From an uncultured bacterium (GTDB lineage Bacteria; Cyanobacteriota; Vampirovibrionia; Gastranaerophilales; Gastranaerophilaceae), in assembly GCA_949286705.1 (NCBI GenBank), contig CASEDF010000010.1, forward strand, positions 1-48,150: a stretch of DNA of 48,150 nucleotides. Reading direction: 5' to 3'. Position 1 is the first letter of the stretch; every line of letters begins with the position of its first letter. The notes under the pieces are model-generated. The model did no database searches. It was not told where the DNA came from and worked only from the letters and a program-made list of their open reading frames with translations. The position numbers and the translations under genes are program-made. Shown here one piece after another: positions 253 through 23,784 of the stretch.

Positions 253-297
253 TGGCAGGGGCAGAAGGGATCGAACCCTCGACACGCGGTTTTGGAG
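253..297. repeat. attL: 45-bp copy of the tRNA-Trp 3' half
   Basis: This 45-bp stretch is identical to 23709-23753. It covers, on the minus strand, the encoded CCA, acceptor 3' strand, T arm, variable loop and the 3' side of the anticodon arm of tRNA-Trp. Homology stops at the anticodon loop, a common crossover position for tRNA-targeting tyrosine integrases. It is not a functional tRNA. Confidence 0.92.
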
Positions 298-1032: not shown

Positions 1033-1479
1033 ATGAGTAAACATTATTATTGTCCTTATTGTGGAGAAACCCAATTTCCATCAAATGTTAGATGTGTTAA
1101 ATGTCGCTCCGTTATGACATTGGTTGAATCAAAGTACGATAGTGAATATTACAGAGATAAATCTCTTGAACAATATGGTGATTACACTCATTGGAGAGAT
1201 TTTTTCATTGAAGAAGTCAAGCAAAATCCATTATTTGATGAGCGAAAATTTAACTATCAACCAACAAAAGAACAACACGATGAGATTTTGAAAAATATTT
1301 TTTCAGCAAATCAGAAAAGCACAGATAATTGCAATGTTCCGAAATGCCCGACTTGTGGCTCTACAAATGTGAGTAAAATTTCCAATACATCAAAAGTTTT
1401 CGGTGGTGCAATATTCGGTTTATTTAGTAAAACTGCATTGTCACAATTCAAATGTAATAATTGTGGTTACAAATGGTAA
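1033..1479 (+). CDS. Double zinc-ribbon protein, 148 aa
   Basis: Two Cys4 zinc-ribbon units flank a charged, largely helical middle. The N-terminal one has CPYCG at residues 7-11 and CVKC at 21-24. The C-terminal one has CPTCGS near residue 105 and CNNCGYKW at the very end. Between them is a Gly/Phe-rich stretch (VFGGAIFGLFSKT) that could contact membrane. The gene is followed 21 bp later by the lipoprotein gene on the same strand, so the two are probably one transcript from the promoter at 955-983. No enzymatic motif is seen, and the function is unknown. Confidence 0.75.
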   Translation: MSKHYYCPYCGETQFPSNVRCVKCRSVMTLVESKYDSEYYRDKSLEQYGDYTHWRDFFIEEVKQNPLFDERKFNYQPTKEQHDEILKNIFSANQKSTDNCNVPKCPTCGSTNVSKISNTSKVFGGAIFGLFSKTALSQFKCNNCGYKW

Positions 1480-3963: not shown

Positions 3964-4521
3964 TTATTGTTGTTGATAATCTTTTATGAGTTTGTCAAGT
4001 GTCGGACGGCTGATATTTAATTCTTTTGCAAGCTCTGATTTGCTTATTTCTCTCGAAATATATCTTTGATAATGTTTATCAAAATCCGGGATTGATACAG
4101 CTTTACGCCCTTTATATTTACCTTCACGCTTTGCAATGGCTATGCCCTCTTTTTGTCTCTCTAATAGGTTTGTACGCTCAAATTCGTTAATTGCTCCTAT
4201 CATTGTAAGCATTAACTTTCCTGTTGGTGTGCTGCTGTCAATGTTTTCTTTGTTGCTTATTAGTGTAATTCCTTTACTGTTTAGTAGTTCCACAATGTCA
4301 AGTAAATCTTTTGTTGACCGTGCAAGCCTTGAAAAGTCGTGTATATGTATTGTGTCGCCCTCTCTTGCAAAGTCAAGCATTTCTTTTAATTTTGGGCGGT
4401 TTGTGTCTTTGCCTGATACCTTTTCTATGAACCACTTTTCTATATTGTACCGCTGCATAGCTTCAATTTGTCGCTGCTCGTTCTGGTCTATGCTTGACAC
4501 TCTAATATAAGCTATTTGCAT
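3964..4521 (-). CDS. Serine resolvase/invertase family recombinase, 185 aa
   Basis: This is a small serine recombinase of the Tn3-resolvase/Hin class. The catalytic domain begins IAYIRVSSIDQNEQRQ, with the nucleophile Ser9. It continues with the DFSRLARSTKDLL region that carries catalytic arginines and with TPTGKLMLTMIGAINEFER on the dimer helix. A C-terminal HTH (ISKSELAKELNISRPTLDKL) binds DNA. Length matches the family. A run of TGTAAA/TTTACA inverted repeats directly upstream (4538-4605) looks like its res/operator site. On this element it could resolve multimers or invert DNA. The element already has a tyrosine integrase, so this enzyme is unlikely to be the integrase. Confidence 0.92.
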   Translation of the reverse strand: MQIAYIRVSSIDQNEQRQIEAMQRYNIEKWFIEKVSGKDTNRPKLKEMLDFAREGDTIHIHDFSRLARSTKDLLDIVELLNSKGITLISNKENIDSSTPTGKLMLTMIGAINEFERTNLLERQKEGIAIAKREGKYKGRKAVSIPDFDKHYQRYISREISKSELAKELNISRPTLDKLIKDYQQQ

Positions 4522-5478: not shown

Positions 5479-5512
5479 GCCCGTCAAGCCGTTAGCACAG
5501 CTTTAATTATTA
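5479..5512 (-). repeat. 34-bp intercistronic repeat, copy 2
   Basis: This is a perfect copy of 4929-4962. It covers the stop codon region of the J-domain gene and ends 17 bases before the start of the small membrane protein gene. Confidence 0.7.
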
Positions 5513-6001
5513 AATGATTGCTAATTTTAATTGTGGCTCTGATTTGATTGTTTCGCTGCCGTAAAGGTCACGGATTTCATCAAGCGAATATGTTTTATTA
5601 CTTGATTTCTTGTAATCCGTTGTGTGATAATACCACGCAAGTTTTGATTTGCTCCAGCGAAAATGTAAGGACTTTAACACTTCCTTATGTTCTTTTGTGT
5701 TTCCTGTTATCCATAACCAAGAGCCGCACAATTCAATATTGATGCCTTCAAGATTTATAAGAGCGTTGATTATATTTTTGAACTCGTCCGGCGTTTCGGT
5801 TGTTTCCTTGCTTGCCGTGTATGTCTTGCCCTCTGCTGTTGCGTGTGTGTTCTTTAACCTTGCAAAGAGTAAATCATACTCGTTATTGATTTCCTGCATA
5901 TCGGCTGTATTTCCGCCTAAATCGGGATGATGTTTTAATGCAAGTTTTTTATACTGCTCTTTTAATTCTTCAAGCGTTGAAGGATTGTTAAACCATTTCA
6001 T
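5510..6001 (-). CDS. J-domain protein, 163 aa
   Basis: The N-terminus is a minimal J-domain: helix II LEELKEQYKKLALKHHPD carries the HPD triad at residues 25-27, followed by the LGGNTADMQEINNEYDLL helix. J-domains stimulate the ATPase of DnaK-type chaperones. The C-terminal ~90 residues contain LCGSWLWITGNTKEHKEVLK and RWSKSKLAWYYH. This tryptophan-rich alpha/beta module is known from other short J-proteins of phages and conjugative elements of Firmicutes. Such proteins are thought to recruit host Hsp70 to replication or transfer complexes, but that is an inference here. AAGGAG precedes the ATG. Confidence 0.85.
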   Translation of the reverse strand: MKWFNNPSTLEELKEQYKKLALKHHPDLGGNTADMQEINNEYDLLFARLKNTHATAEGKTYTASKETTETPDEFKNIINALINLEGINIELCGSWLWITGNTKEHKEVLKSLHFRWSKSKLAWYYHTTDYKKSSNKTYSLDEIRDLYGSETIKSEPQLKLAII

Positions 6002-6127: not shown

Positions 6128-6403
6128 TTAAGCTATTGAAAATCTACGGCTTGATGTCTGCTTTGTGTACTGCTTGTACATTTCAGCGTGTTCCTTTTTG
6201 AATGTCGTTGTGTCAAATCTGTTTGAAAGAACGGAAGTCCAACGGCAAATATAACGCCCTGCGGTCATTTCCTCGGTATTGCGTGAAAGCATTTCAGCTT
6301 TGATTTCATCCTTGAGGCTTTCAACCTGTGCTTTTGCTTCTTCCAAAAGCTCCTCCCATTCCTTTAATGCTGCGATTTTCTTTTCCATTTCGTTTGTTGA
6401 CAT
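6128..6403 (-). CDS. Coiled-coil small protein, 91 aa
   Basis: The first half is a charged helix (MEKKIAALKEWEELLEEAKA) predicted to form a coiled coil. The second half has a compact motif (AGRYICRWTSVLSNRFDTTT) and a Ser/Arg-rich end. Similar small proteins are encoded in phage and ICE replication regions, but I cannot assign a family. ATG 6403 is chosen because AAGGAG lies 8 bases upstream; an in-frame start 17 codons earlier lacks one. It is the first gene after the minus-strand promoter at 6462-6490, so probably heads the leftward operon. Confidence 0.65.
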   Translation of the reverse strand: MSTNEMEKKIAALKEWEELLEEAKAQVESLKDEIKAEMLSRNTEEMTAGRYICRWTSVLSNRFDTTTFKKEHAEMYKQYTKQTSSRRFSIA

Positions 6404-6633: not shown

Positions 6634-6864
6634 TTGCCGATTGTTTATGATAAACTGTTAAAATTATTAGCGGATAATGGTTATACTTCTTATAGAATCA
6701 AAAAAGAAAAGTTAATAGGACAAGGAACATTAACAGCAATTAAAAATGGTACTGGCGGATTAGATGCCAAAAGCATAGCTAAATTATGCGCTGTGTTCCA
6801 TTGCCAGCCTGGCGACCTTATGGAATATGTAGAAGAAAATGAAGAAAATTTTTTTAACGATTAG
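6634..6864 (+). CDS. Cro/CI-type HTH regulator, 76 aa
   Basis: A single compact HTH domain (HTH_26/YozG-like) covers most of the protein: LLKLLADNGYTSYRIKKEK, LIGQGTLTAIKNGTGGLDA, then the CQPGDLMEYV ending typical of this family. A ten-residue acidic tail (EENEENFFND) follows. It starts at TTG (6634), preceded by AAAGGAGG at ideal spacing. It is the first gene of the rightward transcript from the TTGATT/TATAAT promoter, whose operators it may bind. Such proteins act as small autoregulators of phages and ICEs. Confidence 0.85.
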   Translation: MPIVYDKLLKLLADNGYTSYRIKKEKLIGQGTLTAIKNGTGGLDAKSIAKLCAVFHCQPGDLMEYVEENEENFFND

Positions 6865-7556: not shown

Positions 7557-7565
7557 AAATATATC

Positions 7566-7705
7566 CATAAAGAGTGTACGAGGGAGCAAGACCGTTGACT
7601 ACACAGCAACCTGCATTTGCAAGGTGCTACTGCTTGACCGATGGAATATATGACAAAAAACTATTCCCATCGGAAACGATGGGAATTTTTTCTGCACTCT
7701 TTATG
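7566..7705 (+). ncRNA. Structured leader with S-box (SAM-I clan)-like core and terminator
   Basis: An 11-bp outer stem pairs CATAAAGAGTG (7566-7576) with CACTCTTTATG (7695-7705). Inside are GAGGGA (7580-7585), AGCAACC (7605-7611) and AGGTGCT (7622-7628), in the order and spacing of P2/P3 of SAM-I-type riboswitches. CAAG and CTTG can close P2. Downstream, CCGATGG (7638-7644) can pair with CCATCGG (7667-7673), which is also the 5' arm of a terminator hairpin (7664-7692), giving mutually exclusive structures. The outer 3' strand lying beyond the terminator is unusual. The RNA switch class is inferred; other ligands are possible. Confidence 0.55.
7664..7692 (+). terminator. Intrinsic terminator in the leader (expression platform)
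   Basis: A 9-bp stem TTCCCATCG/CGATGGGAA with a GAAA tetraloop is followed by six T. It lies between the consensus promoter and the 7731 gene, so it would stop the transcript unless its 5' arm is captured by CCGATGG at 7638-7644. Confidence 0.8.
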
Positions 7706-8048: not shown

Positions 8049-8579
8049 ACCAGAACACCGAACACAAGCCGAAAATTGACCTGTATTGCGTTTTTATAGT
8101 TTATTAGTATAAGTTTACCTTTTGAGTAAAAATGCGATATAGGCTAAATAAAGCGATATTTACATTATCGTAATTATGCATCAGTTTATTATCAATTCCG
8201 GCAGCGGTTTAGTAAAGACAATTCCTAATTTTATCAATTCAATAATAGTATTATTCAAATAAAGATAAACCTATTTGTGTATTATTACTATGCGATTAAC
8301 CATAGAGAAGCAAATGAGTTTATCACATACAATTTCTTATTTATATATAATATAATAATATATATAAGAGTCGTATTAAATAAGGAATTGTATGTAAATC
8401 AATACTATTCTTAATTTCTATAAGAATAATGAATAGTATATAAGTAATACTATACATAAAGGTGTATTATTTCTGTATGGAAATTCCGAATATCAAACTA
8501 TTGGTTACTATTGACATAGTTCCAATCTATGTTGCGATATAAATTTATTGATATTATACAATATTTTTGATTTTTACTA
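8049..8579. other. Non-coding block left of the second leader
   Basis: There is no gene with a ribosome site in this 530-bp AT-rich stretch. It holds a 12-bp hairpin with two G-U pairs (8083-8094 with 8136-8147), possibly ending the upstream transcript. It also holds the repeat module described at 8211-8460. Confidence 0.5.
8211..8460 (+). repeat. AT-rich non-coding module, copy A
   Basis: This is homologous in inverted orientation to 12722-12975. Shared blocks in the same order are: AAAGACAATTC, CCTATTT, ATTAACCA, ACAATT.CTTATTTA, TAAATAAGGAATTGTAT and a 20-bp identical block containing CAATACTATTCTTAATT. The two ACAATT/AATTGT blocks form an inverted repeat within the copy. ATACTATTC and GAATAGTAT form a second one. 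Coding potential is absent, so conservation suggests a DNA or RNA function such as an origin or protein-binding array. Confidence 0.7.
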
Positions 8580-8608
8580 TTGACAAATCAAAAAAGAAAT
8601 GTTATAAT
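8580..8608 (+). promoter_or_regulatory. Consensus promoter of the second structured leader
   Basis: TTGACA (8580-8585), a 17-bp spacer and perfect TATAAT (8603-8608). It drives a leader of about 220 bases before the small gene at 8837. Confidence 0.8.
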
Positions 8609-8668
8609 AAAGAAAATTAAATCAATCTTAACCGCAATGTGCGGGCGATTTCCTTGTTTAATAAATTT

Positions 8669-8797
8669 AAAGGCTATGCTTGATTGAATATAGGATTAGT
8701 CGATGTAATTCGGCTAATAAAAAAAATCCTAATTATAGTAAATCATTTACTATAAATGGATTGACCTGTATTCATTTCTGCATAGCCTTTTTTTGCG
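8669..8797 (+). ncRNA. Multi-helix structured RNA leader, unknown class
   Basis: An 11-bp closing stem (AAAGGCTATGC 8669-8679 with GCATAGCCTTT 8780-8790) is followed by TTTT, so it can serve as a terminator. Inside it are three helices. P2 is TAGGAT...ATCCTA with TAGTCGA/TCGGCTA nested on top (8691-8731). P3 is TATAGTAAA/TTTACTATA (8734-8754). P4 is AATG/CATT (8755-8776). A CCGC/GCGG hairpin precedes it near 8632. The layout is a four-way junction. It does not match a riboswitch class I can name; a regulatory leader or stable small RNA are both possible. Confidence 0.55.
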
Positions 8798-10184: not shown

Positions 10185-10230
10185 CACTTTATATCCAAAC
10201 AACTAAATGTAAATGAAAGGAATATCAAAA

Positions 10231-11112
10231 ATGCAAAACAAAGCAAATAATTTAATCAAAGTAAAAGAGGCTGCCGAATACTTAATAAGCACAGAATTCG
10301 AAAATGCAGACAAAAAAGATGCTCAATACAAATTGGCATTAAAAAGAGCAAAAGCAAGAATTTACACTGCAATTAAAAAGCATCAGTTAGATATTTTTGG
10401 AGAAACAACTATATTGTTAAATAGGAATCAGGTTAAAGATTTCAAGGACGGAAAAATAACTGCAAGAAGTATGTATTCTCCATTCGGAAATATGGAACTT
10501 GACTTTGATGAGTCTGTTAAATTCATCGAAAGTTTCCATAATCCAAACAGCATTAAAGAACCGCTAAAATATAAGACCAGATGCCAATATGGAGTTACAA
10601 ACAAAGGCAGAGTGCTTGATTTAACATATCGCAGAGTATTAAGCCAAAATAAAGCGGCTCACGATTATAAGCAGGTGAGCATAAGAGCAAATAATAAATC
10701 ATTCCCGGAAAGAACGCACGTACTGGTTGCTTTCGCCTGGTGCCAAAACGGAAAGCTTAAAAATGAGGTGCATCACATTGACGGAGATATTTTCAATAAT
10801 AATTCCCTAAATTTAGTGTGGGTTACGCACTCCGAACATCTCAAAGCTCACAAATTGTTAGAAGAAGCAAAAGTAAATAATGACTTCACGGAATACAATA
10901 ACTATATTGATGAGATACGTAAAGATAACAAATGGGAAGAAGAATACCGCTGTGTAGCCTTTGAAAAAGATAATGCTACTATCTTCGCGTGGATTACTAA
11001 AAAGGCATATACAGACTATAAGAACGGCACAAGAACATTGGACGAAATTTATTATGATGAGGTAAAAACTGAAAGGATAGTAAGAAAATGCCCGACAGAG
11101 AAACAAGTTTAA
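10231..11112 (+). CDS. HNH homing-type endonuclease, 293 aa
   Basis: The C-terminal half contains an HNH_3 nuclease core: HVLVAFAWCQNG, then EVHHIDGDIFNNNSLNLVWV and THSEHLKAH. HH and N ligate the metal at about residues 181-205. In front is a NUMOD-like beta segment (YGVTNKGRVLDLTYRR). The N-terminal ~100 residues include an HTH-like region (LIKVKEAAEYLI) that could recognise DNA. ATG 10231 has AAAGG 10 bases upstream. Single HNH genes of this type act as free-standing homing nucleases in phages or as element-encoded DNA-processing enzymes. Its 3' end overlaps the DUF5659 start (TAATG). Confidence 0.85.
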   Translation: MQNKANNLIKVKEAAEYLISTEFENADKKDAQYKLALKRAKARIYTAIKKHQLDIFGETTILLNRNQVKDFKDGKITARSMYSPFGNMELDFDESVKFIESFHNPNSIKEPLKYKTRCQYGVTNKGRVLDLTYRRVLSQNKAAHDYKQVSIRANNKSFPERTHVLVAFAWCQNGKLKNEVHHIDGDIFNNNSLNLVWVTHSEHLKAHKLLEEAKVNNDFTEYNNYIDEIRKDNKWEEEYRCVAFEKDNATIFAWITKKAYTDYKNGTRTLDEIYYDEVKTERIVRKCPTEKQV

Positions 11113-11303: not shown

Positions 11304-12499
11304 ACAAAGTAATAGTCATTGATTCTATAATGGGCAGCGGAAAAACCACTTGGACTATCAACAACCTGCTGAATCGAAATCTTAATGAAAACATCTTATA
11401 TATTACTCCATATCTGGATGAAGTCAAAAGAATAAAAAACGCAACCGACAGAAAGATGTTTGAACCAGAAAATAAGGGTAGCGGAAAGATAGGCAATATT
11501 GCTAAACTTTTAACTAATCAAATGGATATTGTCAGTACGCACGAGCTATTCCGCCGATTTGATAATAATTGTAAAGCTGCATTACAAGATAATGATTACA
11601 CGCTTATACTGGATGAAACATTAACCGCAGTTGAACCGTACCATTTTACCGGCAAAGATGATTATAAATACCTCCTGCAAAACGGTGATATTAAAGTCAG
11701 TGATGACGGTTTAATTGAATGGGTAGGCTCTGAACTTGATACAAGATTTGACGATGTACGCATATTAGCAACTAATAGATGCCTATTCAAGGTTGATGAC
11801 AAATTTTTTCTCTGGCATTTTCCTCACGCAATTTTTAAGCTATTCAAAAAAGTATATGTGCTTACATACCTTTTTGAAGGCTCTTTAATGAAATATTACT
11901 TTGATTTATACAATATTGAGTACCAAAAGAAAAGTATAAAGTTGGTTGACGGAGAATATACACTTGTGAATTTTTATAATCCTGATAAAATTTCATATAA
12001 AGAGAGAATAAACATATATAATGGAACTCTTAACGAAAACATAAGCCAAAAAGATAATGTACTATCATCAACTTGGTGCAAGAATAACTACAATAAAAAA
12101 GAACTTGTTCAGATACAGAAAAATTTTTACAACTATTGCAGAAACATTGTTAAAACCAACAGTAAATACATAATGTGGACTTCATTTAAAGATTGTAAGC
12201 CGAAACTATCTGGCAAGGGATATACTAATGGCTTTGTTCCTTGTAACTGCCGGGCGACTAACGACCATCGAAATGCAACTTGTTTGATGTATGCTGTGAA
12301 TTGGTATGAAAATCCTGAAATAACTAAATTTTTTAAGCAACACGGAATAACCATAAATCAAAATCAATTAGCATTAGCTACTTTGTTACAGTGGATATGG
12401 CGAAGCAATATTAGGGTAACGGATAGTGAAAAAATAATCAATATATACATTCCGTCAAAGCGAATGAGAAACCTGTTTTTGGAGTGGCTAAATGGTTGA
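11300..12499 (+). CDS. P-loop ATPase/SF2-like protein, ~399 aa
   Basis: Walker A is MGSGKTT, preceded by a hydrophobic strand (NKVIVIDS) that is normal for this fold. Walker B is YTLILDETL, about residue 96. Between them are ILYITPYLDEVKRI and VSTHELFRRF, as in SF2-like phage ATPases of this size. The natural start is probably ATA at 11300, because AAAGGAG sits 9 bases before it and no ATG/GTG/TTG is available upstream of the P-loop. The ATG at 11330 would remove the first strand. It is followed by two terminators. Likely roles are in replication or DNA processing of the element; helicase activity is unproven. Confidence 0.75.
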   Translation: MNKVIVIDSIMGSGKTTWTINNLLNRNLNENILYITPYLDEVKRIKNATDRKMFEPENKGSGKIGNIAKLLTNQMDIVSTHELFRRFDNNCKAALQDNDYTLILDETLTAVEPYHFTGKDDYKYLLQNGDIKVSDDGLIEWVGSELDTRFDDVRILATNRCLFKVDDKFFLWHFPHAIFKLFKKVYVLTYLFEGSLMKYYFDLYNIEYQKKSIKLVDGEYTLVNFYNPDKISYKERINIYNGTLNENISQKDNVLSSTWCKNNYNKKELVQIQKNFYNYCRNIVKTNSKYIMWTSFKDCKPKLSGKGYTNGFVPCNCRATNDHRNATCLMYAVNWYENPEITKFFKQHGITINQNQLALATLLQWIWRSNIRVTDSEKIINIYIPSKRMRNLFLEWLNG

Positions 12500-12721: not shown

Positions 12722-12975
12722 TATAATTAAGAATAGTATTGATTTATAGTATATAGATTAAGACTATTCTTAATTTTTATACAATTCCTTATTTACTACG
12801 ATTATTATATACTATTTTAAATTATTAAATTAAATAAGTAATTGTACAGTAACCCTATTCACTTTCTCCCGTTGGTTAATAGTAAAATAATAATGTAAAT
12901 AGGCTTACCGAACATAAACATACTTAATACAGTTATGAAATAGGCAAATCAAGAATTGTCTTTAATAATGCGCCA
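12722..12975 (-). repeat. AT-rich non-coding module, copy B (inverted)
   Basis: This is the reverse-complement homologue of 8211-8460. It shares the 20-bp block with GAATAGTATTGATTTA, the ATACAATTCCTTATTTA block, the TTGGTTAAT region and GAATTGTCTTTA, in collinear order. Sequence between blocks has diverged, so it is not a recent duplication. It also contains its own ACAATT/AATTGT inverted pair and an ACTATTCTT hairpin. Confidence 0.7.
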
Positions 12976-13128: not shown

Positions 13129-13401
13129 ATGTATAATTACACAAATACATTACTATACAGCGCTAAAAGTCGCAATAAAATAAAAAATGGCAAGCTAAAA
13201 TACTTCATATGCCGTGACTTTGACGGTGATAATCTTTTCGTTGAAAAAATTAAAAGCCCACCTGCCGATATGGCTATTGCAAATTCCGGCATCGAACGAT
13301 TCAGGTGGAATGTTCTCAATCTGGATATTCTGGCAGAAAAGTATAACATCATAATGATTAAAAATAAACCTGATAGTGAGGATAACAGAGATGGAAATTG
13401 A
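13129..13401 (+). CDS. Hypothetical protein, 90 aa
   Basis: The product is not recognised. Its N-terminal half is basic (LYSAKSRNKIKNGKLKYFIC). The C-terminal half has RFRWNVLNLDILAEKYNIIM. AGGAGG stands 5 bases before the ATG. It heads a run of four overlapping small genes ahead of the tape-measure gene and overlaps the next start by 11 bases. Confidence 0.7.
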   Translation: MYNYTNTLLYSAKSRNKIKNGKLKYFICRDFDGDNLFVEKIKSPPADMAIANSGIERFRWNVLNLDILAEKYNIIMIKNKPDSEDNRDGN

Positions 13402-13756
13402 GCAAGGATGTTATGTAAAACAGCATATTGAAAATCTGAATTATGATGATTACTTTTTGGTTTTAGAAGTTGAGAATAAACATATTAAAGCTACAAAACA
13501 CCGAGGAACTCCAGTAGATTCCGTTATTCTGGATTATGCGGAAGTAACTGGCGCCGGATATACAATAGAGGTATTGAGCGAAAAAGATGTTGATTGCATT
13601 ACAAAATACGGTACATATCTGAAAAATGGAATACCGTCATCACACCCGACAGCTCTACAGTATAGGTGGAGCAACAAAGAATATACTATCCCATTAAAGC
13701 AAAAATACTGGAATGGCTCAAAATGGGCTGAAATTCCTGAAGGGTTTTACAAATGA
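13391..13756 (+). CDS. Hypothetical protein, 121 aa
   Basis: This unrecognised protein appears beta-rich, with a start MEIEQGCYVKQHIENLNYDD and a C-terminal block RWSNKEYTIPLKQKYWNG. ATG 13391 is chosen because GAGG lies 9 bases upstream; an in-frame GTG at 13376 would put the ribosome site inside the gene. It overlaps both neighbours, so translation in this cluster is coupled. Confidence 0.7.
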   Translation: MEIEQGCYVKQHIENLNYDDYFLVLEVENKHIKATKHRGTPVDSVILDYAEVTGAGYTIEVLSEKDVDCITKYGTYLKNGIPSSHPTALQYRWSNKEYTIPLKQKYWNGSKWAEIPEGFYK

Positions 13757-14079
13757 AACCTGAAACGAAAAAAATAAAAGAGTTAGACCGGCAACACAGA
13801 GAAAGAATTATACAAGAAGCAAGGAAAATTGCATATGATTTCAAACGGTGGGGATTTCGACTCGATATATTTCCGCTGCATCCATACAGTGGATGGGCGA
13901 AAATGACACCACAACAGGTATATCAGCCTGAAATATATGCTTTGTATTTGGATGATGAGTGTATTAAAGATAATATGTATATTACAGATTTAAGTAAAGT
14001 TTATCTTGCTTCAAAAAGGTACAGGCACGACCACGGAATAAAAAAATTACAAGAAAACATTGAGGATATATTAAAATGA
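13753..14079 (+). CDS. Hypothetical protein, 108 aa
   Basis: The product is not recognised. The N-terminal third is a basic helix (KIKELDRQHRERIIQEARKI). It is followed by GFRLDIFPLHPYSGWAKMTP and a basic C-terminus (LASKRYRHDHGIKKLQ). The start overlaps the stop of the previous gene as ATGA, and its own stop overlaps the next start in the same way. Confidence 0.7.
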   Translation: MKPETKKIKELDRQHRERIIQEARKIAYDFKRWGFRLDIFPLHPYSGWAKMTPQQVYQPEIYALYLDDECIKDNMYITDLSKVYLASKRYRHDHGIKKLQENIEDILK

Positions 14080-14321
14080 TAAATAAAGATAAGATTAAAT
14101 ATAATGAACCAATTTATTATATGCCCACATATGGCGGAACGATTAAAATATCCGTTATAAAGGCAAAAACCGACAATCTGATGTTGGTTAAGCAATATTC
14201 AAAGAAAAAGGATTTTAAGGCTTTTGTTACGCCGATTGAGCATATATACAATAAGCCTGAACACGCACAGCGTGGAAGTCGAGAATGGGAGCATTATATG
14301 CGACATCAAAAAAAACAATAA
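14076..14321 (+). CDS. Hypothetical protein, 81 aa
   Basis: The product is not recognised. It is a strongly basic small protein with a beta-rich start (NEPIYYMPTYGGTIKISVIK) and a charged tail (REWEHYMRHQKKQ). ATGA overlap couples it to the preceding gene. It is the last gene before the UUCG-loop terminator, which separates the small-gene cluster from the tape-measure gene. Confidence 0.65.
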   Translation: MINKDKIKYNEPIYYMPTYGGTIKISVIKAKTDNLMLVKQYSKKKDFKAFVTPIEHIYNKPEHAQRGSREWEHYMRHQKKQ

Positions 14322-14378: not shown

Positions 14379-14396
14379 GTAAAGGAAGTGATAACA

Positions 14397-17300
14397 ATGA
14401 GCGAATTTAAGGCAAAGATTATTGCCGAGCTTGATACATCAAAAGTAGAACAGCAAATAAATGATTTGAATGGTAAAAAAGTAAAATTTGATGTTGATAC
14501 TGGTAACACACAGAAAAATATAAATAGCATCGGTAATTCAATCAAATCAACAGCTAAAACGGCATCTTCTTTTAGTGAAACATTGAAGAAATCCTTAAAT
14601 ATTGGTGCGGCGGCAACGATAGCACGAGAAGGATTTCAACTTATCAGAACAGCTGCAAATAATGCCATAGAGTCAATTAAGGACTTAAATGGTGAAATAG
14701 TTGATTTGCAGATGGCAACAAGACAAAGTTATAACCAGGTATCAAAACTTGTTGGTGACTATAATGAAATGGCTAAATCATTAGGAGCGACTACAACACA
14801 AGTGACGGATGCAGCTGATTCTTGGTTAAGGCAAGGTAATTCATTGAGTGATACAAATACGCTTATTAGAGATTCAATGATTTTATCGAAAGTCGGTCAG
14901 CTTGATTCTGCCGCTGCAACTCAATATCTTACATCTTCAATGAAAGGCTATAAAGTTGCCGCAGACGATGCACTGGGTATTGTTGATAAATTAACAGCCG
15001 TTGACCTTGAGTCTGCAACAAATGCCGGTGGACTTGCAGAGGCTATGTCAGAGGTGGCAGTAACAGCAAGTAACGCAGGTGTTTCAATGGATAAACTGTT
15101 GGGATATTTAGCAGCAACCGGAGAAGTAACACAAGAAAGTATGTCAACCATCGGAACATCATTCAAGACGATTTTTACAAGAATGTCTGACATTAAGTCT
15201 GGTAAACTTGAATTGATTGATGAAGATGGCACTACTGAAATCTTATCAGATGTTGAACAGACACTTGCAAATGTCGGTATTGATTTAAGAAAAACAGTCA
15301 CTGAATACAATAATTACGGGGATGTACTTGATAATCTTGCGGCTAAATGGGATTCGTTAAGTCAAGTTCAACAAAATGCTTTAGCAAAGGCTTTTGCAGG
15401 AACAAGACAGCAAAATAGATTCCGTGTTTTAATGGAAAACTATGATAATGCCAAAAAGTATATGGATGTTGCGGCAAATTCAGCAGGTACAGCAGAAAGC
15501 AAATTTTCAGCATATTTAGATAGTGTTGAATCGAAAATCAATTCTCTGCAAGCAGCATTTGAATCATTAGTTTTCAACAGCTCAATGACAGAAATATACA
15601 GCGGTATTGTCGAAGCCTCTACTGCTGTTTTGGAGTTCCTGGATAACACCAAACTTTTGCAAGGAGCTTTAGCAGGATTAGCAACTGCCGGGGCTGTTGA
15701 AGGGCTGAAAGCGTTAGTTTCCGGAATTCAAAATTCAGCTACACAGATGAGTAATTTTGGTAATGCTTTAACTCTATTAAGTTCTGGAAGCCAAGTTATG
15801 GGTGATGATTTTCAAGACTTATTGTTAATGACAGAGAATCTATCTCAAAGTCAATTAAAAGCAGTGTTATCATCCGAAGCATTGAGTACAGAACAAAGAA
15901 TTGCTATATTGACCTCACAGGGAATGACCACTGCACAGGCAGAAGCTGCACTATCTTCAATGGGATTGGCAACTGCTGAAGGTGCTGCAACAGCATCAAC
16001 CGTTACATTAGCAAGTGCAGTTAAAGGATTATGGGCTACACTTATGGCTAATCCATTATTGCTAATTGTTGCCGCTGTGACAGCAGGAACAATGGCTATC
16101 AGTGCATTAGCCAGTGCAGCCAGAGAAGCCTCCGAAGCTGCCGATGAATTCAAGCAATCTGCAATGGAAGAAGCACAGGCAGCAAGAGAAGAAGTTCAAA
16201 CATTAGATGAACTTATTGCCAAATACAAAGAACTTGCTGAAAGTGATACACAGGATGCTGGAACAAGAGAAGAAATCAAGAGCATTCAAAGTGAAATCAC
16301 AGATTTAGTTGGCAATCAGGCAGATAATCTTGATTTAGTAAACGGCAAATTGGATGAAGAAATTGCTAAACTTAATCAAATCAGGAAAGACGAAGCCGAT
16401 AAAGCAGTTGATAAAGCAACAACCGCATATCACGCCGCAAAAGATTCTCACGATAAAGCAATGGGTCAAGATTCAGCATTATGGATTGATGGATATGCTT
16501 ATGTTAGTGAAGATTGGTGGAGTAATGAAGATGAAATAATAGATATTCTTCAAAATAATGGTTTTGAGAATTCTGTTCAAAAAGGTGGAATAGCCAATTC
16601 TCATACATTCATAATGGATTCTATGGATGAAAATATGAATATGTTAGAGGGTGCTACCGAAAAAGCAGAATACTTAAAAAGAATGATTGCTGTTATTGAA
16701 GAAAACTATTCAGACTATGCATCAAGTGATATTTGGAATGCACTCAATAAACAAGTTGAAGCATATGAACAATATGCAAATGATATGAAAAAGACGGCAA
16801 AAGACCTTGCCGAAGCTGAAATTCTATCTTCTACATATGATGAATCGCTTTCTAAAATAAATGTTAATTCTCTTGATAATTATTCAGAATATAGAGATAA
16901 ACTTATTGATTTAGTTAAGAATAGCCCTAATTTATCAGAAGCAATAAGTTCAGGAGACTTAACAGAAAATGATATTGCAGGACAAGTTGATAATTATTTA
17001 GCAACAATTCCAAAATATTCAGAATACTATAATCAATTTTCTAAATTAGAAGAACAGAAAAAGAAAATTGCGAATGTTAAGAAAGAGTTTGCTGATTCTG
17101 ACTGGGTTCAAGATTCGAGTTGGGGTATTGCTGAACAAAGAATTAACGATTTCAATGATTGGTTTGATAATTTATCTGATGAAGATAAAGAAATTGTTTA
17201 TGATATTTCTTGCAAAACTGATACTGCAAAATTTAATTTAGAAGATTGGCAAAATGCACTTGAAAATTATAATTCATACACAAAGCAAACTGCCGATGAA

Positions 17301-20300
17301 ATTGAGAGCAATTTAACCAGAGCAGCAGAAAGTACAAAAACTCTTGTTTCTGGAATTTCTTCTGCACAGGATATTTTATCTTCTCAAACAACCGGCACAT
17401 CTTTATCTATTGAAGATTTTAATTCGGAAGAATTAGAGGACTATCGTTCTGCTCTTGAATATACCAACGGCACAATGCAGCTTAATGCTGAAAAAGTTAA
17501 TGAAATTGTAAAAGCAAAATCACAGGAACAGATTGAGATTAACAATACAAACAAAGCAATGGCTCAATCTACATATCTTGATAATGCCGCACAAATAGAA
17601 AAACTTCGTCAGAAAATTAAGGATAAAAACTTTGCTGAAGGTGAAAGTGAAGAATCAATCCAAAATAATATTGATGCTTTGCTTGAAGAAAACGGAGCAA
17701 TTAAATTAAATTGCGATGCCTATGATTTAATGAACGCTTCACTTCAAGAAGCAACTGATGCTTATCATAATTGGCTCAATGCTCAAAATGCTGCTCAAAG
17801 CGGAGATATGTTTGATGATACACTTGATGCTATAAATCGTATCAATGAAACATTAAATGATACTGATTCAGAATATTATGGTAGAGTTGGTAGAACCGAT
17901 TATAAAGCTGCTCTTAATTTAATCATACCTGATTCCGTCAATTCGGAAGATGAAGCAAAGGTAAATGCTTACTTAAAGAGCATTTATGATATGTTTACAT
18001 ATGATGATGACGGTAATCGTGCCGGATTAAATATAGAGAATTTCTGTCAGAAAGCAGTAGATAAGGGCTTAATGGTTCTTGATGAATCAACAGACTCTTA
18101 TCAAATTGCTGGTCAAAAAACAATGGAAGATTTCGCCAAAGGAATGAACCTTTCTCTCCCACTTGTTCAGGCTATGTTCGGAGAAATGGAAGAATTCGGT
18201 GGTGAATTTTCTTGGGCTGATGAAGCTGTAAAAACCATTGGAGATTTAGGCGTTGCCGCAAATGAATCAGCAGAAGCATTGCGAAAAATCAAAGGTAATG
18301 AAGATTTAGCTATTAAACTTGATGTTTCTGAAATTGAGGGTACTGATGATAAAATTTCAACATTAGAAGCCACAATTAAAGAAATGCAGAATGTTAAAGG
18401 AAAAGCAAAAGTAGATGCTTCCGAAGTTGAGTATGCAAATCAAATTATTGAATATTGTGTTGCTCAACAGCAAAATCTTTCTGCTCCGATTGTAATGTCA
18501 GTTGATACTTCGGCAATTAGTGAAAAGAATGCCGAAGCAATAGAGCAAATTCAAGAATTCAAGAGAGCTTGTAACGATTTAGAGTTAAAGCAAAAACTTG
18601 GAGTTGATACTTCCGATGCACAAAGCAAGGTTAATACTCTTGCAACAGATATTAAAAATATTGACCCTAAAATCGCAGCAGAATTAAGCCTCGATACTTC
18701 ATCTGTTGAAAATCTTAAAACGAGTATAAATAATATTACTGGTGAACAGTTAGTTAAGATTGGAATAGATGATAGTGCAATTATTGGTTGGACGGCAGAT
18801 AATAAAACTGCAAAAGTAACTTATGATGTCGATTCAACTGCCGTTGATACTTACAAAAAGCAAGATGATAGTAAAACTGCAACAGTAACATATCATAAGA
18901 TTTCAACAGAAGTTGACCAATATAATCCATCTAACTTATCAAGAACGGTTACATACCATATTAAAACAGAGGGTTCTGTTGGAGTAAATGGAACAGCAAA
19001 TGTTACCGGTACTGCTATGGCAGGTGGTAATTGGGGTGCTAAAAGAGGTGGAAACACTCTTGTTGGTGAACTCGGCAGAGAAATCGTTGTTGACCCACAT
19101 ACAGGAAGATGGTACACGGTTGGAGATACTGGAGCAGAATTTGTTGATATTCCAAAAGGTTCTATTGTATTCAATCATAAACAAACAGAATCTTTATTGG
19201 CAAATGGTTATGTTGCTGGTAGAGCCTCTGCTCTTGTTAATGGTACTGCTATGGTTACTGGTGGTATTAAGCGTAATAATGCTCAAACAAGTACCAAATC
19301 AGGTGGTAATTCAACAAGTAATTACGGAAAATCTTCAAGTAGCAAATCTTCATCAAGTAGTTCAAAATCATCTTCAAAAAGTTCCGAAGAAGAAAAAGAA
19401 CCGCAAATTTTCGACTGGATTGAAATTGCTTTAAGCCGTATTCAAAGAGCAATAGATAATCTTTCAAAGAAAGCCGAAAGCACTTTTAAGAAATTATCTA
19501 CAAGACTTTCAGCAACAAATAAGGAGATTAGCAAAGTCAATGAGGAAATAAACCTTCAGCAAAAAGCGGCAGATAGATATATGAAAGAAGCCAATAATGT
19601 TGGTTTATCATCTGCTCTTGCTAAAAAGGTTAGAGAAGGAACTATTGACATCAATGAATACGATGAAGATACACAAAAGTTAATACAAGATTATCAAAAT
19701 TGGTATGAAAAAGCTCTTGAATGTAAGGATGCTATTGCAGACTTGCACGAGGAATTGGCTTCATTATATGAAGATAATTTTAACAATGTCAAAGATGATT
19801 ATGAAAATCAGTTAAGTCTTTATGAACATTTAACTAATACCTACGAAACAGGTATTGATTTGCTCGATGCTAAAGGTTATATGGCAAGCACCAAATATTA
19901 TGCAGCAATGCAGAGTGTTGAAAAAAAAAATATTTCAATAAGAAAAAAGGAACTTGCCGACCTTGAAAAACAGTTTTCTGCTGCTATGAACTCTGGAGAA
20001 ATCGAAAAGTATTCAGAGGCGTGGTACTCAATGCAAGCCGAAATAAATGGTGTTAAAGAAGCCATTGCAGAATCAGAAGTTAATCTTGCAGAATTTGCAA
20101 AGACTATGCGTGAAATTGAATGGGAACGATTTGATTATATTCAGGAACGCATTGAGAATATTACCCAAGAGGCTGATTTCTTAATTGACATTATGAGCAG
20201 TAAAGACCTCTATGATGATAAAGGTCAGCTCAATAATGAAGGTATGGCTACAATGGGCTTACACGGTCAGAATTATAATGTCTATATGGCACAGGCTGAC

Positions 20301-21791
20301 CAGTATGCACAAGAAATTCTTGACATCAATGAACAGATTGCAAAAGACCCATATAATACTGAATTGATTGCTCGTAGAGAAGAACTGCTCGGATTACAGC
20401 AAGACTCTATAAAGGCAGCAGAGGATGAAAAACAAGCCATCGTTGATATGGTTGAGGAAGGTATTAGCCGTGAACTTGATGCTCTTAAAGAGTTGATAGG
20501 TACATATACAGATGCTTTGGATAGTGCAAAGAATTTGTATGACTATCAAAACAAAGTGTCTGAAAAAGCCGATGAAATTGCTTCGTTGCAGAAACAATTA
20601 TCTGCATATAAAGGTGATAATTCAGAAGAAACAAGAGCAACTATTCAAAAGTTAGAAGTTGACCTTTCTAAAGCCCAAGAGGACTTGGCAAAGACAGAGT
20701 ACGACCAGTTTATTACTGACCAGAAAAAGTTGCTTGATGAACTTTATACAGAATATGAGGACATATTAAATCAGCGTTTAGATGATGTGGATGCTTTAAT
20801 TAGTGATATGATTGACCAAATCAATTTGAATGCTGATAGTATAAATGATACGCTCGTTACAACTGCCGATAGTGTTGGTTATACAATGTCTGATAATATG
20901 CAAAGAATTTGGGATGGTTCTACTAATGCTCTTGATGGTGTAATTACAAAATATGGTGACAAATTCGATTCACAATTTACATCCGTAAATTCTGTTTTGA
21001 ATTCAATTTCGGTTGCAGTTGCTTCTATGGTTAGCGAAAGTGATAATCAAGCGGCTGAAACAGTTAAGGACACAACAACTACAACTGAACCATCAAAACC
21101 TGCCGACACTCCAAAGCCGACTAAACCTGCCGCTACTCCAAAGCCGACTAAACCTGCTGAAAAGAAAGTAACGATTGGTGGCAAGATAAACGCTAAAGGT
21201 GCAAAGATTTATTCAAACTCTTATGGTGGCGGAAAGCAAAATCAATATTTTGCAAGTGACCCTATTTATACTGTACTCGGTGAAAACAACGGTTATTGGA
21301 AAGTTCGTTATCATAAGTTATCCAGTGGTGTTACTGGTTGGTTTAAGAAAGGCGATGTTAAGGCATATAAGACAGGTGGACTTGTAGATTATACCGGATT
21401 AGCACAACTTGATGGCACTCCCGGAAAGCCTGAATTGGTTCTTAATTCAAAAGATACAGATAACTTTATTAGATTAAGAGATGCTTTGCGTGCTATGGCA
21501 TCACAACCATTAACAATTGGTGAAAGTTATGCAGTTAGCAATATATTACCGACTGTTACAGGAATCACAGATGTGAGTAATATGATTTCAAAAATATCTG
21601 CTACTCCGACAATATCGCAAAATAATAATGTAACATTCGGAGACATTAAAATTGACCACGTTGAAGATTATAATGATTTTGTGACACAGTTACAGAGAGA
21701 CCCGAAGTTTGAGCGAATGATACAAGCGATGACAACCGACATTCTCAATGGTGGTAGTTCTCTTTCAAAGTATAAATATCATTGGAAATAA
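14397..21791 (+). CDS. Giant phage tape-measure-like protein with SH3-like domain, 2464 aa
   Basis: The N-terminal ~430 residues match TP901-type tail tape-measure proteins (DLNGEIVDLQMATRQSYNQV, then ALAKAFAGTRQQNR). A hydrophobic stretch (PLLLIVAAVTAGTMAISAL) lies near 550. Around 1554-1607 are the tape-measure signatures GELGREIVVDP, WYTVGDTGAEFV and PKGSIVFNHKQTE. A Ser/Lys linker (~1650) and long coiled coils follow. A Pro-Thr-Lys repeat (~2231-2257), an SH3-like domain (~2258-2326) and the family's terminal LNGGSSLSKYKYHW end complete it. ATG 14397 has AAAGGAAG upstream. In phages this protein sets tail length and passes through the envelope during DNA entry. Here no other virion gene accompanies it, so its role is open. 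Confidence 0.93.
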   Translation: MSEFKAKIIAELDTSKVEQQINDLNGKKVKFDVDTGNTQKNINSIGNSIKSTAKTASSFSETLKKSLNIGAAATIAREGFQLIRTAANNAIESIKDLNGEIVDLQMATRQSYNQVSKLVGDYNEMAKSLGATTTQVTDAADSWLRQGNSLSDTNTLIRDSMILSKVGQLDSAAATQYLTSSMKGYKVAADDALGIVDKLTAVDLESATNAGGLAEAMSEVAVTASNAGVSMDKLLGYLAATGEVTQESMSTIGTSFKTIFTRMSDIKSGKLELIDEDGTTEILSDVEQTLANVGIDLRKTVTEYNNYGDVLDNLAAKWDSLSQVQQNALAKAFAGTRQQNRFRVLMENYDNAKKYMDVAANSAGTAESKFSAYLDSVESKINSLQAAFESLVFNSSMTEIYSGIVEASTAVLEFLDNTKLLQGALAGLATAGAVEGLKALVSGIQNSATQMSNFGNALTLLSSGSQVMGDDFQDLLLMTENLSQSQLKAVLSSEALSTEQRIAILTSQGMTTAQAEAALSSMGLATAEGAATASTVTLASAVKGLWATLMANPLLLIVAAVTAGTMAISALASAAREASEAADEFKQSAMEEAQAAREEVQTLDELIAKYKELAESDTQDAGTREEIKSIQSEITDLVGNQADNLDLVNGKLDEEIAKLNQIRKDEADKAVDKATTAYHAAKDSHDKAMGQDSALWIDGYAYVSEDWWSNEDEIIDILQNNGFENSVQKGGIANSHTFIMDSMDENMNMLEGATEKAEYLKRMIAVIEENYSDYASSDIWNALNKQVEAYEQYANDMKKTAKDLAEAEILSSTYDESLSKINVNSLDNYSEYRDKLIDLVKNSPNLSEAISSGDLTENDIAGQVDNYLATIPKYSEYYNQFSKLEEQKKKIANVKKEFADSDWVQDSSWGIAEQRINDFNDWFDNLSDEDKEIVYDISCKTDTAKFNLEDWQNALENYNSYTKQTADEIESNLTRAAESTKTLVSGISSAQDILSSQTTGTSLSIEDFNSEELEDYRSALEYTNGTMQLNAEKVNEIVKAKSQEQIEINNTNKAMAQSTYLDNAAQIEKLRQKIKDKNFAEGESEESIQNNIDALLEENGAIKLNCDAYDLMNASLQEATDAYHNWLNAQNAAQSGDMFDDTLDAINRINETLNDTDSEYYGRVGRTDYKAALNLIIPDSVNSEDEAKVNAYLKSIYDMFTYDDDGNRAGLNIENFCQKAVDKGLMVLDESTDSYQIAGQKTMEDFAKGMNLSLPLVQAMFGEMEEFGGEFSWADEAVKTIGDLGVAANESAEALRKIKGNEDLAIKLDVSEIEGTDDKISTLEATIKEMQNVKGKAKVDASEVEYANQIIEYCVAQQQNLSAPIVMSVDTSAISEKNAEAIEQIQEFKRACNDLELKQKLGVDTSDAQSKVNTLATDIKNIDPKIAAELSLDTSSVENLKTSINNITGEQLVKIGIDDSAIIGWTADNKTAKVTYDVDSTAVDTYKKQDDSKTATVTYHKISTEVDQYNPSNLSRTVTYHIKTEGSVGVNGTANVTGTAMAGGNWGAKRGGNTLVGELGREIVVDPHTGRWYTVGDTGAEFVDIPKGSIVFNHKQTESLLANGYVAGRASALVNGTAMVTGGIKRNNAQTSTKSGGNSTSNYGKSSSSKSSSSSSKSSSKSSEEEKEPQIFDWIEIALSRIQRAIDNLSKKAESTFKKLSTRLSATNKEISKVNEEINLQQKAADRYMKEANNVGLSSALAKKVREGTIDINEYDEDTQKLIQDYQNWYEKALECKDAIADLHEELASLYEDNFNNVKDDYENQLSLYEHLTNTYETGIDLLDAKGYMASTKYYAAMQSVEKKNISIRKKELADLEKQFSAAMNSGEIEKYSEAWYSMQAEINGVKEAIAESEVNLAEFAKTMREIEWERFDYIQERIENITQEADFLIDIMSSKDLYDDKGQLNNEGMATMGLHGQNYNVYMAQADQYAQEILDINEQIAKDPYNTELIARREELLGLQQDSIKAAEDEKQAIVDMVEEGISRELDALKELIGTYTDALDSAKNLYDYQNKVSEKADEIASLQKQLSAYKGDNSEETRATIQKLEVDLSKAQEDLAKTEYDQFITDQKKLLDELYTEYEDILNQRLDDVDALISDMIDQINLNADSINDTLVTTADSVGYTMSDNMQRIWDGSTNALDGVITKYGDKFDSQFTSVNSVLNSISVAVASMVSESDNQAAETVKDTTTTTEPSKPADTPKPTKPAATPKPTKPAEKKVTIGGKINAKGAKIYSNSYGGGKQNQYFASDPIYTVLGENNGYWKVRYHKLSSGVTGWFKKGDVKAYKTGGLVDYTGLAQLDGTPGKPELVLNSKDTDNFIRLRDALRAMASQPLTIGESYAVSNILPTVTGITDVSNMISKISATPTISQNNNVTFGDIKIDHVEDYNDFVTQLQRDPKFERMIQAMTTDILNGGSSLSKYKYHWK

Positions 21792-22155: not shown

Positions 22156-22350
22156 ATGACAAATGAAATGTTTAAAGAATATCCGGATGTATTGACACCG
22201 GGAGATTTACAGAAAATGTTGCACATAGGCAGAAATGCAGTATATAAAATTCTAAACGAAAAACTTATTGATACCATTAAAATCGGTAAGAAATACATAA
22301 TACCAAAAGTTAATGTAATTAAATATTTGACCGCTGCCAGCGAATTTTAA
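22156..22350 (+). CDS. xis: Excisionase-like HTH protein, 64 aa
   Basis: This is a winged-HTH protein of the HTH_17/MerR-like excisionase group. It has LTPGDLQKMLHIGRNAVYKI as the recognition unit and LIDTIKIGKKYIIPKVNVIK as the wing and following strand. Such proteins accompany tyrosine integrases and bend attR DNA to favour excision. It is directly upstream of the integrase gene with an 80-bp gap. The gene symbol is by role and position. Confidence 0.85.
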   Translation: MTNEMFKEYPDVLTPGDLQKMLHIGRNAVYKILNEKLIDTIKIGKKYIIPKVNVIKYLTAASEF

Positions 22351-22430: not shown

Positions 22431-23609
22431 TTGAAGAAAAAGCGAAATATAACAGGCAGCATTCAAATCAAAAACGGTAAATGGTGGGTAGTTGTAAATC
22501 TCTATGATGAGAACGGAAAGCGAAAGCCAAAATGGATTGATACAAAGTTATCCGAAAGAGGAAATAAGCGTAAGGCTGAAAAATTGTTATCTGACTATTT
22601 GTCAGAATACAATAAAATGAATATTCCGTATTCAAAATTGACGGTTGCAGATTACTTTGAACAGTGGCTTGATGATATTAAATCAGAGGTAAAAACAAAT
22701 ACATATCGTTCTTATTTTGGAAATATGACAAATCACATTATACCTTATTTCAAACAAAATAAAATACAGTTGCAGGAATTGACACCGTTTGATTTAGAGG
22801 AATATTACAAATTCAAATTGCAACCAAACAGCAAAATCAATTCAGGTGAAGCATTATCTGCAACAACAATCAAACATCATCATCAAAATATCAGTAAGGC
22901 ATTAGCAGATGCAGTAAGAAAAGGTTTAATTATGGCTAACCCTGCTACAAGTGCAAAAACACCTAAAGCAGAAAAATTCAAGGGCGAATTTTTAAATCAA
23001 AAACAAGTAAATGAAATGCTTGTATTGTTTAGAGGCTCTGTAATTGAATTACCTGTGTTTCTGTGTTCTGTTTACGGTTTTCGCAGAAGTGAAGTTTTAG
23101 GTTTGAAATGGCATAATATAGATTTTGAGAGCAAATCTATAACCATAGCTGAAACTTTGCAGCAAAGCATAGGTGGAAATTACACTGATACGCCAAAAAC
23201 CGAAAGTAGTTACAGAACATTGCCGATGACCAATGAAGTCTATACTGCTTTAATTACAGCAAAAAGCCTTCAGGAAGAACGCAAGCAGTTAATGGGGAAC
23301 TATTATATCTTAAATGATTATGTTTGTACTTGGCAAAATGGAAATGTAATATCTCCAAATTACTTAACAAGGACTTTTAAGAGTGTTATAACTAAAAGTA
23401 ATTTGCCTAATATTCGTTTACACGATTTAAGGCATAGTGCAGCGAGTAATTTGTTAGATATGGGATTTTCAGTTGTGCAAGTATCTGATTGGCTCGGTCA
23501 TAGTAGTTCGGCAACGACATTAAATTTTTATGCTCACGCTGAAAAACGCTCAAAAATGGATATTGCAAACGCTCTTGAGTCTGCATTTCAAACACAAAGT
23601 GATAGATAA
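22431..23609 (+). CDS. int: Tyrosine integrase, 392 aa
   Basis: The N-terminal AP2-like arm-binding domain (GSIQIKNGKWWVVVNL) is followed by a SAM-like core-binding domain (LTVADYFEQWLDDIKSE) and a C-terminal catalytic domain. The active residues are visible: Arg in YGFRRSEVLGL, the H-x-x-R pair in LHDLRHSAAS, His in WLGHSS, and the nucleophile Tyr in LNFYAHA. TTG 22431 is chosen as start because AAAGGAG sits 9 bases before. It belongs to the Tn916/phage type. It lies next to attR and is expected to recombine the 45-bp tRNA-Trp core. The stop codon overlaps the first right arm repeat. Confidence 0.96.
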   Translation: MKKKRNITGSIQIKNGKWWVVVNLYDENGKRKPKWIDTKLSERGNKRKAEKLLSDYLSEYNKMNIPYSKLTVADYFEQWLDDIKSEVKTNTYRSYFGNMTNHIIPYFKQNKIQLQELTPFDLEEYYKFKLQPNSKINSGEALSATTIKHHHQNISKALADAVRKGLIMANPATSAKTPKAEKFKGEFLNQKQVNEMLVLFRGSVIELPVFLCSVYGFRRSEVLGLKWHNIDFESKSITIAETLQQSIGGNYTDTPKTESSYRTLPMTNEVYTALITAKSLQEERKQLMGNYYILNDYVCTWQNGNVISPNYLTRTFKSVITKSNLPNIRLHDLRHSAASNLLDMGFSVVQVSDWLGHSSSATTLNFYAHAEKRSKMDIANALESAFQTQSDR

Positions 23610-23708: not shown

Positions 23709-23753
23709 TGGCAGGGGCAGAAGGGATCGAACCCTCGACACGCGGTTTTGGAG
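23709..23753. repeat. attR: 45-bp direct repeat inside tRNA-Trp
   Basis: This is identical to 253-297. Because the element supplies the same 45 bases, the tRNA gene at this end stays complete after integration. Confidence 0.92.
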
Positions 23754-23784
23754 ACCGCTGCTCTACCAGCTGAGCTATACCCCT
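23709..23784 (-). tRNA. tRNA-Trp (CCA)
   Basis: The cloverleaf is complete: a 7-bp acceptor stem (AGGGGTA with TGCCCCT), D arm, anticodon loop CTCCAAA with anticodon CCA, T arm with GGTTCGATCCC, discriminator G and an encoded CCA tail (76 nt in total). It is the integration target; its 3' half is the attR repeat. Confidence 0.97.

Follow-up and report, generated by a model that had tools for sequence, protein, structure and literature searches.

The window analysed here, a stretch of 48,150 nucleotides, covers bases 1-48150 of contig 10 in a genome assembly of 1.85 Mb and 41 contigs. It carries an integrated element of 23.46 kb whose only recognised virion-related genes encode a giant tape-measure protein (TMP) and a small coiled-coil partner. 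The element is probably an integrated satellite of a large SPbeta-like siphophage, building chimeric tails. It has close relatives in other genomes, its TMP is under purifying selection, and the two ends of this TMP have different histories. The host was taken in the analysis as one of the gut or rumen Clostridia, and the lineage in the source record is Gastranaerophilaceae.

The element is bounded by a perfect 45-bp direct repeat derived from the 3' end of tRNA-Trp (Table 1). It is regarded as complete because the attL repeat falls within the window, though the contig edge lies 252 bases further left. Just inside attR lie a tyrosine integrase and an excisionase-like gene. The element thus has bounds, an integrase and att sites of its own, and a second bounded copy exists in another genome (L012). 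A PHROG scan, covering proteins of ~60 aa or longer minus a few very small ORFs, gave no terminase, portal, capsid, tail tube, baseplate or lysis family match; head and packaging families, including those of the cf-PICI kind, were likewise unmatched. Among the traits of PICI/SaPI-type satellites, a repressor and an excisionase are present, while no Pri-Rep, TerS or capsid-size gene was recognised by PHROGs, a scan that families of unknown type could escape. Additionally, no recognisable tail-completion gene occurs in the window, and no terminase small subunit common to element and phage was found. A search for a shared packaging site in the noncoding region gave only short, AT-rich, weak matches in phage records.

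Table 1. Features of the integrated element (positions are those of the window)
Feature	Position	Strand	Remarks
attL, 45-bp perfect copy of tRNA-Trp 3' end	253..297	.	
cI/Cro-type repressor	589..882	-	PHROG phrog_8, E 1e-20; L012 copy 96% identical
Zinc-ribbon protein	1033..1479	+	homologues inside or beside split TMP genes of several phages
Lipoprotein, variable N-terminal and conserved C-terminal part	1501..2274	+	homologue adjoins TMP in phage L002
Two secreted or membrane proteins	2319-2807, 2827-3303	-	kept in relatives
DUF6431 protein	3387-3734	-	kept in relatives
Serine resolvase/invertase	3964..4521	-	86-98% identical in L012, L013, L014
DnaJ-like protein (phrog_15863)	5510..6001	-	also common in ordinary phages
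Conserved protein of ~91 aa (phrog_6244)	6128..6403	-	
Cro-like HTH regulator	6634..6864	+	
SAM-I riboswitch ahead of ORF 7731-8048 (cargo)	7562..7647	+	
Palindromic element-specific site TACAATTnCTTATTTA...TAAATAAGnAATTGTA, copy 1	8328..8392	.	may be an origin or control site
Consensus sigma-70 promoter (8580-8608) and predicted structured RNA with terminator (8617-8795)	8580..8795	+	
HNH endonuclease	10213..11112	+	
P-loop ATPase, SPbeta YonV family	11330..12499	+	probable replication module
Palindromic site, copy 2	12780..12846	.	upstream of TMP gene cluster
Four consecutive small genes ahead of TMP (13129, 13391, 13753, 14076)	13129..14321	+	
Tape-measure protein (TMP), 2464 aa	14397..21791	+	
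Coiled-coil protein, 78 aa	21851..22087	+	homologue immediately 3' of TMP in phages L002, L003
Excisionase-like HTH protein	22156..22350	+	
Tyrosine integrase	22431..23609	+	
tRNA-Trp; 3' end (23709-23753) = attR	23709..23784	-	

The SAM-I riboswitch is followed by a terminator-like hairpin and then a 105-aa ORF, of which no counterpart was seen in L012. Relatives have genes for Fic proteins or toxin-antitoxin-like pairs in the slot 3' of the Cro-like gene (L012 5042-5656, L013 4481-5140, L140 3191-3668, and L004); in the same place, a short remnant-like pair is seen in the window (6940-7207). The lipoprotein and its L012 counterpart have unrelated N-terminal parts and an identical C-terminal stretch of 55 aa, a pattern that suggests a rapidly changing exposed domain. 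The DnaJ-like gene was considered as a satellite marker and rejected, as it is common in ordinary phages.

The TMP reading frame, preceded by a ribosome-binding site and an in-frame GTG at 14388, runs for 2464 codons from its ATG without an internal stop; the chance of an open frame of such length at this base composition is ~10^-89. The protein matches PHROG tape-measure families (best E 1.4e-89) and contains Pfam PhageMin_Tail (TP901) at residues 124-335 (E 2e-24), a GELGREIVV...GAEF block at residues 1557-1582 and an SH3-like stretch starting at residue 2261. The downstream 78-aa ORF is also real and conserved. Between the window and L012 copies, dN is 0.038 and dS 0.361, giving a dN/dS of 0.106 for the TMP, as compared with 0.078 for the integrase and 0.081 for the resolvase. 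The constraint runs along the whole protein and is weakest near the C-terminus. At such a ratio the TMP is therefore kept, and not decaying, in both copies. An earlier note, made from the letters of this DNA, had described an uninterrupted protein with tape-measure signatures from end to end, filling one third of an element devoid of other virion genes and probably maintained by selection. The observation holds: the TP901, GELGREIVV...GAEF and SH3-like signatures were found, the computed share is 31%, and in related elements the TMP is under purifying selection. In plasmid and annotated-phage collections, no close TMP was present (<60% identity, coverage at most 22%).

The search of related genomes that the earlier note had recommended yielded a small family. 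Among 84,980 bacterial and archaeal genomes scanned for the TMP, close relatives turned up in three records (L012, L013 and L014), and the spread within the host family was judged from 99 relatives and an integrase search of 146 genomes. All genomes are assemblies, mostly metagenomic, and the elements are few: five with a common RNA and eight with stand-alone TMPs. The L012 element, 21.1 kb in length and located in another genome, is colinear over most of the window element and bounded by the same tRNA-Trp repeat; its TMP is 93% and its integrase 89% identical. L013 has the backbone in common, with a serine recombinase, a different middle part and an added phage neck gene. Its TMP comprises only the C-terminal 1470 aa, without the first ~1000 aa, and is fused in frame to an upstream gene (the counterpart of 14076). 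L014 retains TMP residues 1-393; the C-terminal 86 residues encoded by a phage Dit gene, 84% identical to those of phage L003, come directly after them, and chromosomal genes follow. The likeliest origin of this arrangement is an internal deletion in an element once equipped with TMP and Dit, the alternative being an assembly error; both truncated relatives come from metagenome assemblies. Furthermore, the 20.9-kb IMG/VR record L140 carries a 2333-aa TMP and then a serine recombinase, with no other recognisable virion gene and no head, packaging or lysis gene among the proteins scanned. In L013 and L140, the TMP has been retained despite replacement of the replication genes and of the integrase (tyrosine or serine type). 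A full set of morphogenesis genes was found in none of the relatives examined.

More distant stand-alone TMPs occur in three records of 30-36 kb (L004, L005 and L007; S104, S105 and S107 are the same records with pieces joined), each of which may be part of a larger replicon. Partition genes of the TubZ/TubR-like type are found in related plasmid-like records. One of these, L005 (IMGVR_UViG_2924256906_000003), has a TubZ-like partition gene alongside a TMP and a tail spike of 1917 aa with a Peptidase_S74 chaperone at its end; it may be a satellite that replicates and brings its own receptor-binding part. The tRNA-Trp site of L012 (L018; contig CANBJR010000016.1) is also occupied, upstream of the element described above, by another one, probably mobilisable, that has a related integrase (57%) and FtsK-like and DnaJ-like genes. 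These plasmid-like records and the IME-like tandem neighbour would suit an integrative element of another kind, mobilisable or plasmid-like, in which the TMP is a passenger without a function in transfer. Such an explanation is most unlikely, as Pfam and PHROGs detected no relaxase, coupling protein, FtsK/TcpA or secretion gene in the element itself, and the TMP is constrained and conserved in all relatives.

The family is also marked by two noncoding features. The predicted RNA of 179 nt behind the consensus promoter folds with a z-score of -7.7 against shuffles, and a model built from the window, L012 and L014 copies finds further ones in L013 (E 5e-11) and L140 (E 4e-6), making five elements in all. 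Across the five sequences, two-sided changes occur in 11 pairs, as against 5.0 in shuffles (0/500), a count that leans towards structure because the alignment was fitted to the RNA model. Neither the phage loci searched nor nine whole phage records gave a match to the model, and no Rfam family matched the RNA. The conserved core was not detected in 383 genomes of the order by an exact pattern, which misses even the window's own copy owing to a one-base deletion. For possible targets in phage start regions, duplex energies were no better than those of reversed or shuffled probes. The palindromic site is present twice in the window, in opposite orientations flanking the HNH and ATPase genes, once in L012 and once in L013; none was detected in 1.79 Mb of phage loci. 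Together, the RNA and the palindromic site provide sequence tags for spotting more family members.

The nearest phage TMPs belong to three IMG/VR contigs of 150-164 kb (L002, L003 and L006), where the gene sits in a fixed head/tail block in the order TMP, ~100-aa coiled-coil gene, 273-aa gene (named Dit solely by its place in the block) and large genes of the tail tip. The phage coiled-coil gene is homologous to that of the window in L002 and L003. Moreover, the C-terminal half of the TMP is 50-60% identical to those of the 150-160-kb phages, which are the candidate helpers, and the ATPase shares 40-42% identity with the corresponding protein of SPbeta-like phages, which in SPbeta is YonV. The surrounding head, packaging and tail block of the phage loci is absent from the window, L012 and L140, and elsewhere it is represented only by the tail-completion gene of L013 and the Dit end of L014. 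Pfam PF03354 (terminase) was dropped as a control, being too insensitive for these phages. A co-resident prophage with a similar TMP, which the earlier note had advised looking for, was not found; no helper prophage was detected in the host genome by TMP or head protein, and such a blank search proves little.

With a TMP, a coiled coil and a YonV-like ATPase of SPbeta-like origin, and with truncated TMPs in L013 and L014, the element might be an SPbeta-like prophage stripped down to its TMP region. This origin is very improbable in view of the perfect att repeats, the intact integrase and excisionase, the colinear second copy and a TMP dN/dS of 0.11. The common RNA and the palindromic site, neither of which was found in the phage DNA tested, also speak against a stripped prophage, as do the lack of an intact relative with morphogenesis genes and of a resident helper-type head gene.

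The satellite reading draws on the mosaic structure of the TMP. In sliding comparisons, residues 1 to ~600 of the window TMP are closest to stand-alone elements (S104, 37-56%; L140, 25-53%), and over residues 1-480 most phages reach 16-32% identity. Further along, phages lead in patches: L003 and L110 reach 59-76% at residues 601-840, and over much of 961-2160 L002 and L006 reach 41-74%. The tree of residues 40-450 places six of the seven stand-alone TMPs in one clade (support 100/99), together with phages L181 and L160, which have an element-type N-terminus; the stand-alone label needs 3 changes on this tree as against 6.7 in shuffles. On the tree of residues 1545-2464, the label requires 6 changes, which does not stand out from shuffles (94/500), the distant elements are scattered among different phages, and the C-terminal part of L013 is nearer to phage L006 than to the window. 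The two trees disagree, in line with the sliding comparisons; thus the C-terminal part has been repeatedly exchanged with phages, with one N-terminal type in common. From these sequence comparisons, the TMP is a mosaic of N-terminal ~500-600 aa of the stand-alone-element type and a phage-like C-terminal half.

Several phages have a TMP gene interrupted by an insert near window residue ~440-520, close to the mosaic changeover. Many SPbeta-like phages have TMP genes split near the same place by inserts of 0.7-3.4 kb (L003 11188-12060, L006 7531-8459, L110 ~11120-11990 and L169 ~11220-11900), several of which hold a homologue of the zinc-ribbon gene. Group I introns were considered for the split genes of L003 and L006 and rejected, with no Rfam match at gathering scores. 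The TMP of the vibriophage helper ICP1 also requires splicing (PMC12987554).

Published structures of other phages offer roles for the two ends. In 80alpha/SaPI1, a sheet at the neck is made up of TMP N-termini and the tail-completion protein, and the TMP C-termini touch Tal at the tip (PMC11661146); deletions in TP901-1 agree with these roles (PMC5099701). By analogy, the phage-like C-terminus would dock on the helper tip and the satellite-type N-terminus would lie at the neck. Some relatives carry tail parts of their own, namely a tail-completion homologue (L013), a Dit end (L014) and a tail spike (L005). In L013, a 143-aa protein encoded immediately 5' of the TMP is 74% identical to a phage L003 protein in the same block. 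Its model (pLDDT 88) matches the 80alpha/SaPI1 tail-completion protein 9mu2_P with Z 8.2 and rmsd 3.1 A over 108 of 109 residues; the next, unrelated row has Z 4.4, and the Foldseek E-value is not significant. On the strength of the Z-score, it is called a probable tail-completion protein. The gene at 13753, which occupies the corresponding slot in the window, was modelled (pLDDT 87) as a hidden tail-completion candidate and rejected, with no clear structural match; it has no relatives in IMG/VR. Furthermore, no tail assembly chaperone was recognised by PHROGs or Pfam in the four genes upstream of the TMP.

Since TMP N-termini bind the neck and C-termini the tip, and the TMP is a mosaic, the element is read as a satellite making chimeric tails. 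Events, from the choice of helper through induction and packaging to chimeric virions, would then proceed as follows. The element would reside in tRNA-Trp, held by its repressor, until infection by the helper sets off excision and replication. Its TMP and coiled-coil partner would start a tail on the helper Dit/Tal via the phage-like C-terminal half, and the helper tail-tube protein would polymerise along the TMP. The satellite-type N-terminus, with a tail-completion protein, would form the neck end, and the chimeric tails would carry element DNA. The earlier note had suggested a satellite supplying a length-altered tail to a helper. The idea of a satellite that would alter the helper tail is well supported by the selected TMP, its phage-like C-terminal half, the 78-aa partner and the lack of a full morphogenesis set in the relatives found. 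Length change as the purpose is not borne out by lengths of 2464 aa in the window, 2504 aa in L002 and ~2840 aa in L003 and L006; as a general purpose it was rejected, since element and phage TMP lengths overlap. Nothing was found in support of two further suggestions, a DNA-delivery or envelope-spanning device and a remnant kept for toxicity.

The same C-terminal half would compete for the helper Dit/Tal, and tail assembly is a known target of defence (Tab, Tai, Rta). The TMP, together with the coiled coil, could hence be an anti-phage decoy that is made during infection and poisons the tail assembly of related phages, the element spreading otherwise or only vertically; possible exclusion genes in the cargo (lipoprotein 1501 and zinc ribbon 1033), with homologues near phage TMPs, would fit such a role. 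A decoy is nevertheless unlikely: a full-length protein of 2464 aa under uniform constraint exceeds its needs, the tail-completion protein, Dit and spike added in relatives fit particle building, and the TMPs of PLE satellites in Vibrio cholerae are incorporated and needed for transduction (PMC12987554).

For a chimeric-tail satellite, a more specific and rather doubtful proposal is that the TMP acts as an adaptor with two ends. The C-terminal half would be repeatedly swapped to fit the helper tip, the satellite N-terminus (with the tail-completion protein where present) would steer chimeric tails preferentially to heads filled with satellite DNA, and an SviR-like RNA would favour satellite tail genes. 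If true, this would amount to an identity code for tails, beyond mere length change. In any case, the opposite histories of the TMP ends provide a testable rule for fitting parasite parts to a helper machine and can show which end must match what. Satellite TMPs were shown to be functional only in 2026, in one Vibrio family. The present elements, which seem to lack any capsid gene, suggest that Clostridia and siphophages have the same strategy; the PLE-like tail strategy in Clostridia, a helper of the SPbeta-like kind and the N/C split within the TMP would be new. No report of such elements in Clostridia was found in the open-access literature, the scope of the search leaving aside subscription journals and preprint servers.

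Several known systems resemble the element in part. SPbeta-like siphophages (SPbeta, phi3T; L002, L003, L006) have the same TMP family, downstream coiled-coil gene and YonV-like ATPase, but their 100-170-kb genomes carry head and tail genes, of which the element has none beyond the TMP region. A putative TMP also occurs in cf-PICIs, which are likewise satellites (Extended Data Fig. 10 of PMC12987554); unlike the element, they have their own capsids (PMC12987554) and, according to a 2023 paper, a terminase (PMC10448857). That paper also reports 224 putative satellites of E. coli that have a putative TMP and a baseplate part. Its RepA_N satellites are like the element in being tRNA-integrated, with tyrosine or serine recombinases, exchangeable replication genes and a putative TMP without a full tail set, theirs being accompanied by the baseplate part. 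They differ in also encoding capsid genes and in host phylum and helper, and no N/C mosaic is reported in the text read (PMC10448857).

The closest precedent is provided by the PLEs of V. cholerae (Nature 2026), whose gene set includes a TMP, a tail assembly chaperone and, in some cases, a baseplate hub, and which form chimeric tails; deletion of the TMP lowers transduction by 96-99.9%, and TMPs were noted in PLE-like elements and cf-PICIs as well (PMC12987554). Together with the reports on TMPs in E. coli satellites (PMC10448857) and cf-PICIs (PMC12987554), this work overturns the statement in the earlier note that no established system of the kind was known, which is wrong as of March 2026. 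PLE1, PLE4 and PLE11 resemble the element in being integrated, in having their own TMP among a partial tail set without a full virion set, and perhaps in a conserved small RNA. The chimeric tails of PLE11 were demonstrated experimentally (PMC12987554), whereas the element is known here from its genes. PLEs are proteobacterial and depend on ICP1, a helper with a contractile tail; their TMP is only ~20% identical to that of the helper, and they have a dedicated chaperone. The element, in contrast, has a Clostridia host, a siphophage-type TMP with a helper-like C-terminal half and no recognisable chaperone. PLEs also have a conserved regulatory small RNA, SviR, of which the structured RNA conserved in five elements would be at most a candidate counterpart. 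Membership among the PLEs is not claimed, since host, helper type, TMP origin and other genes differ; by analogy with this precedent, the element most likely works as a PLE does.
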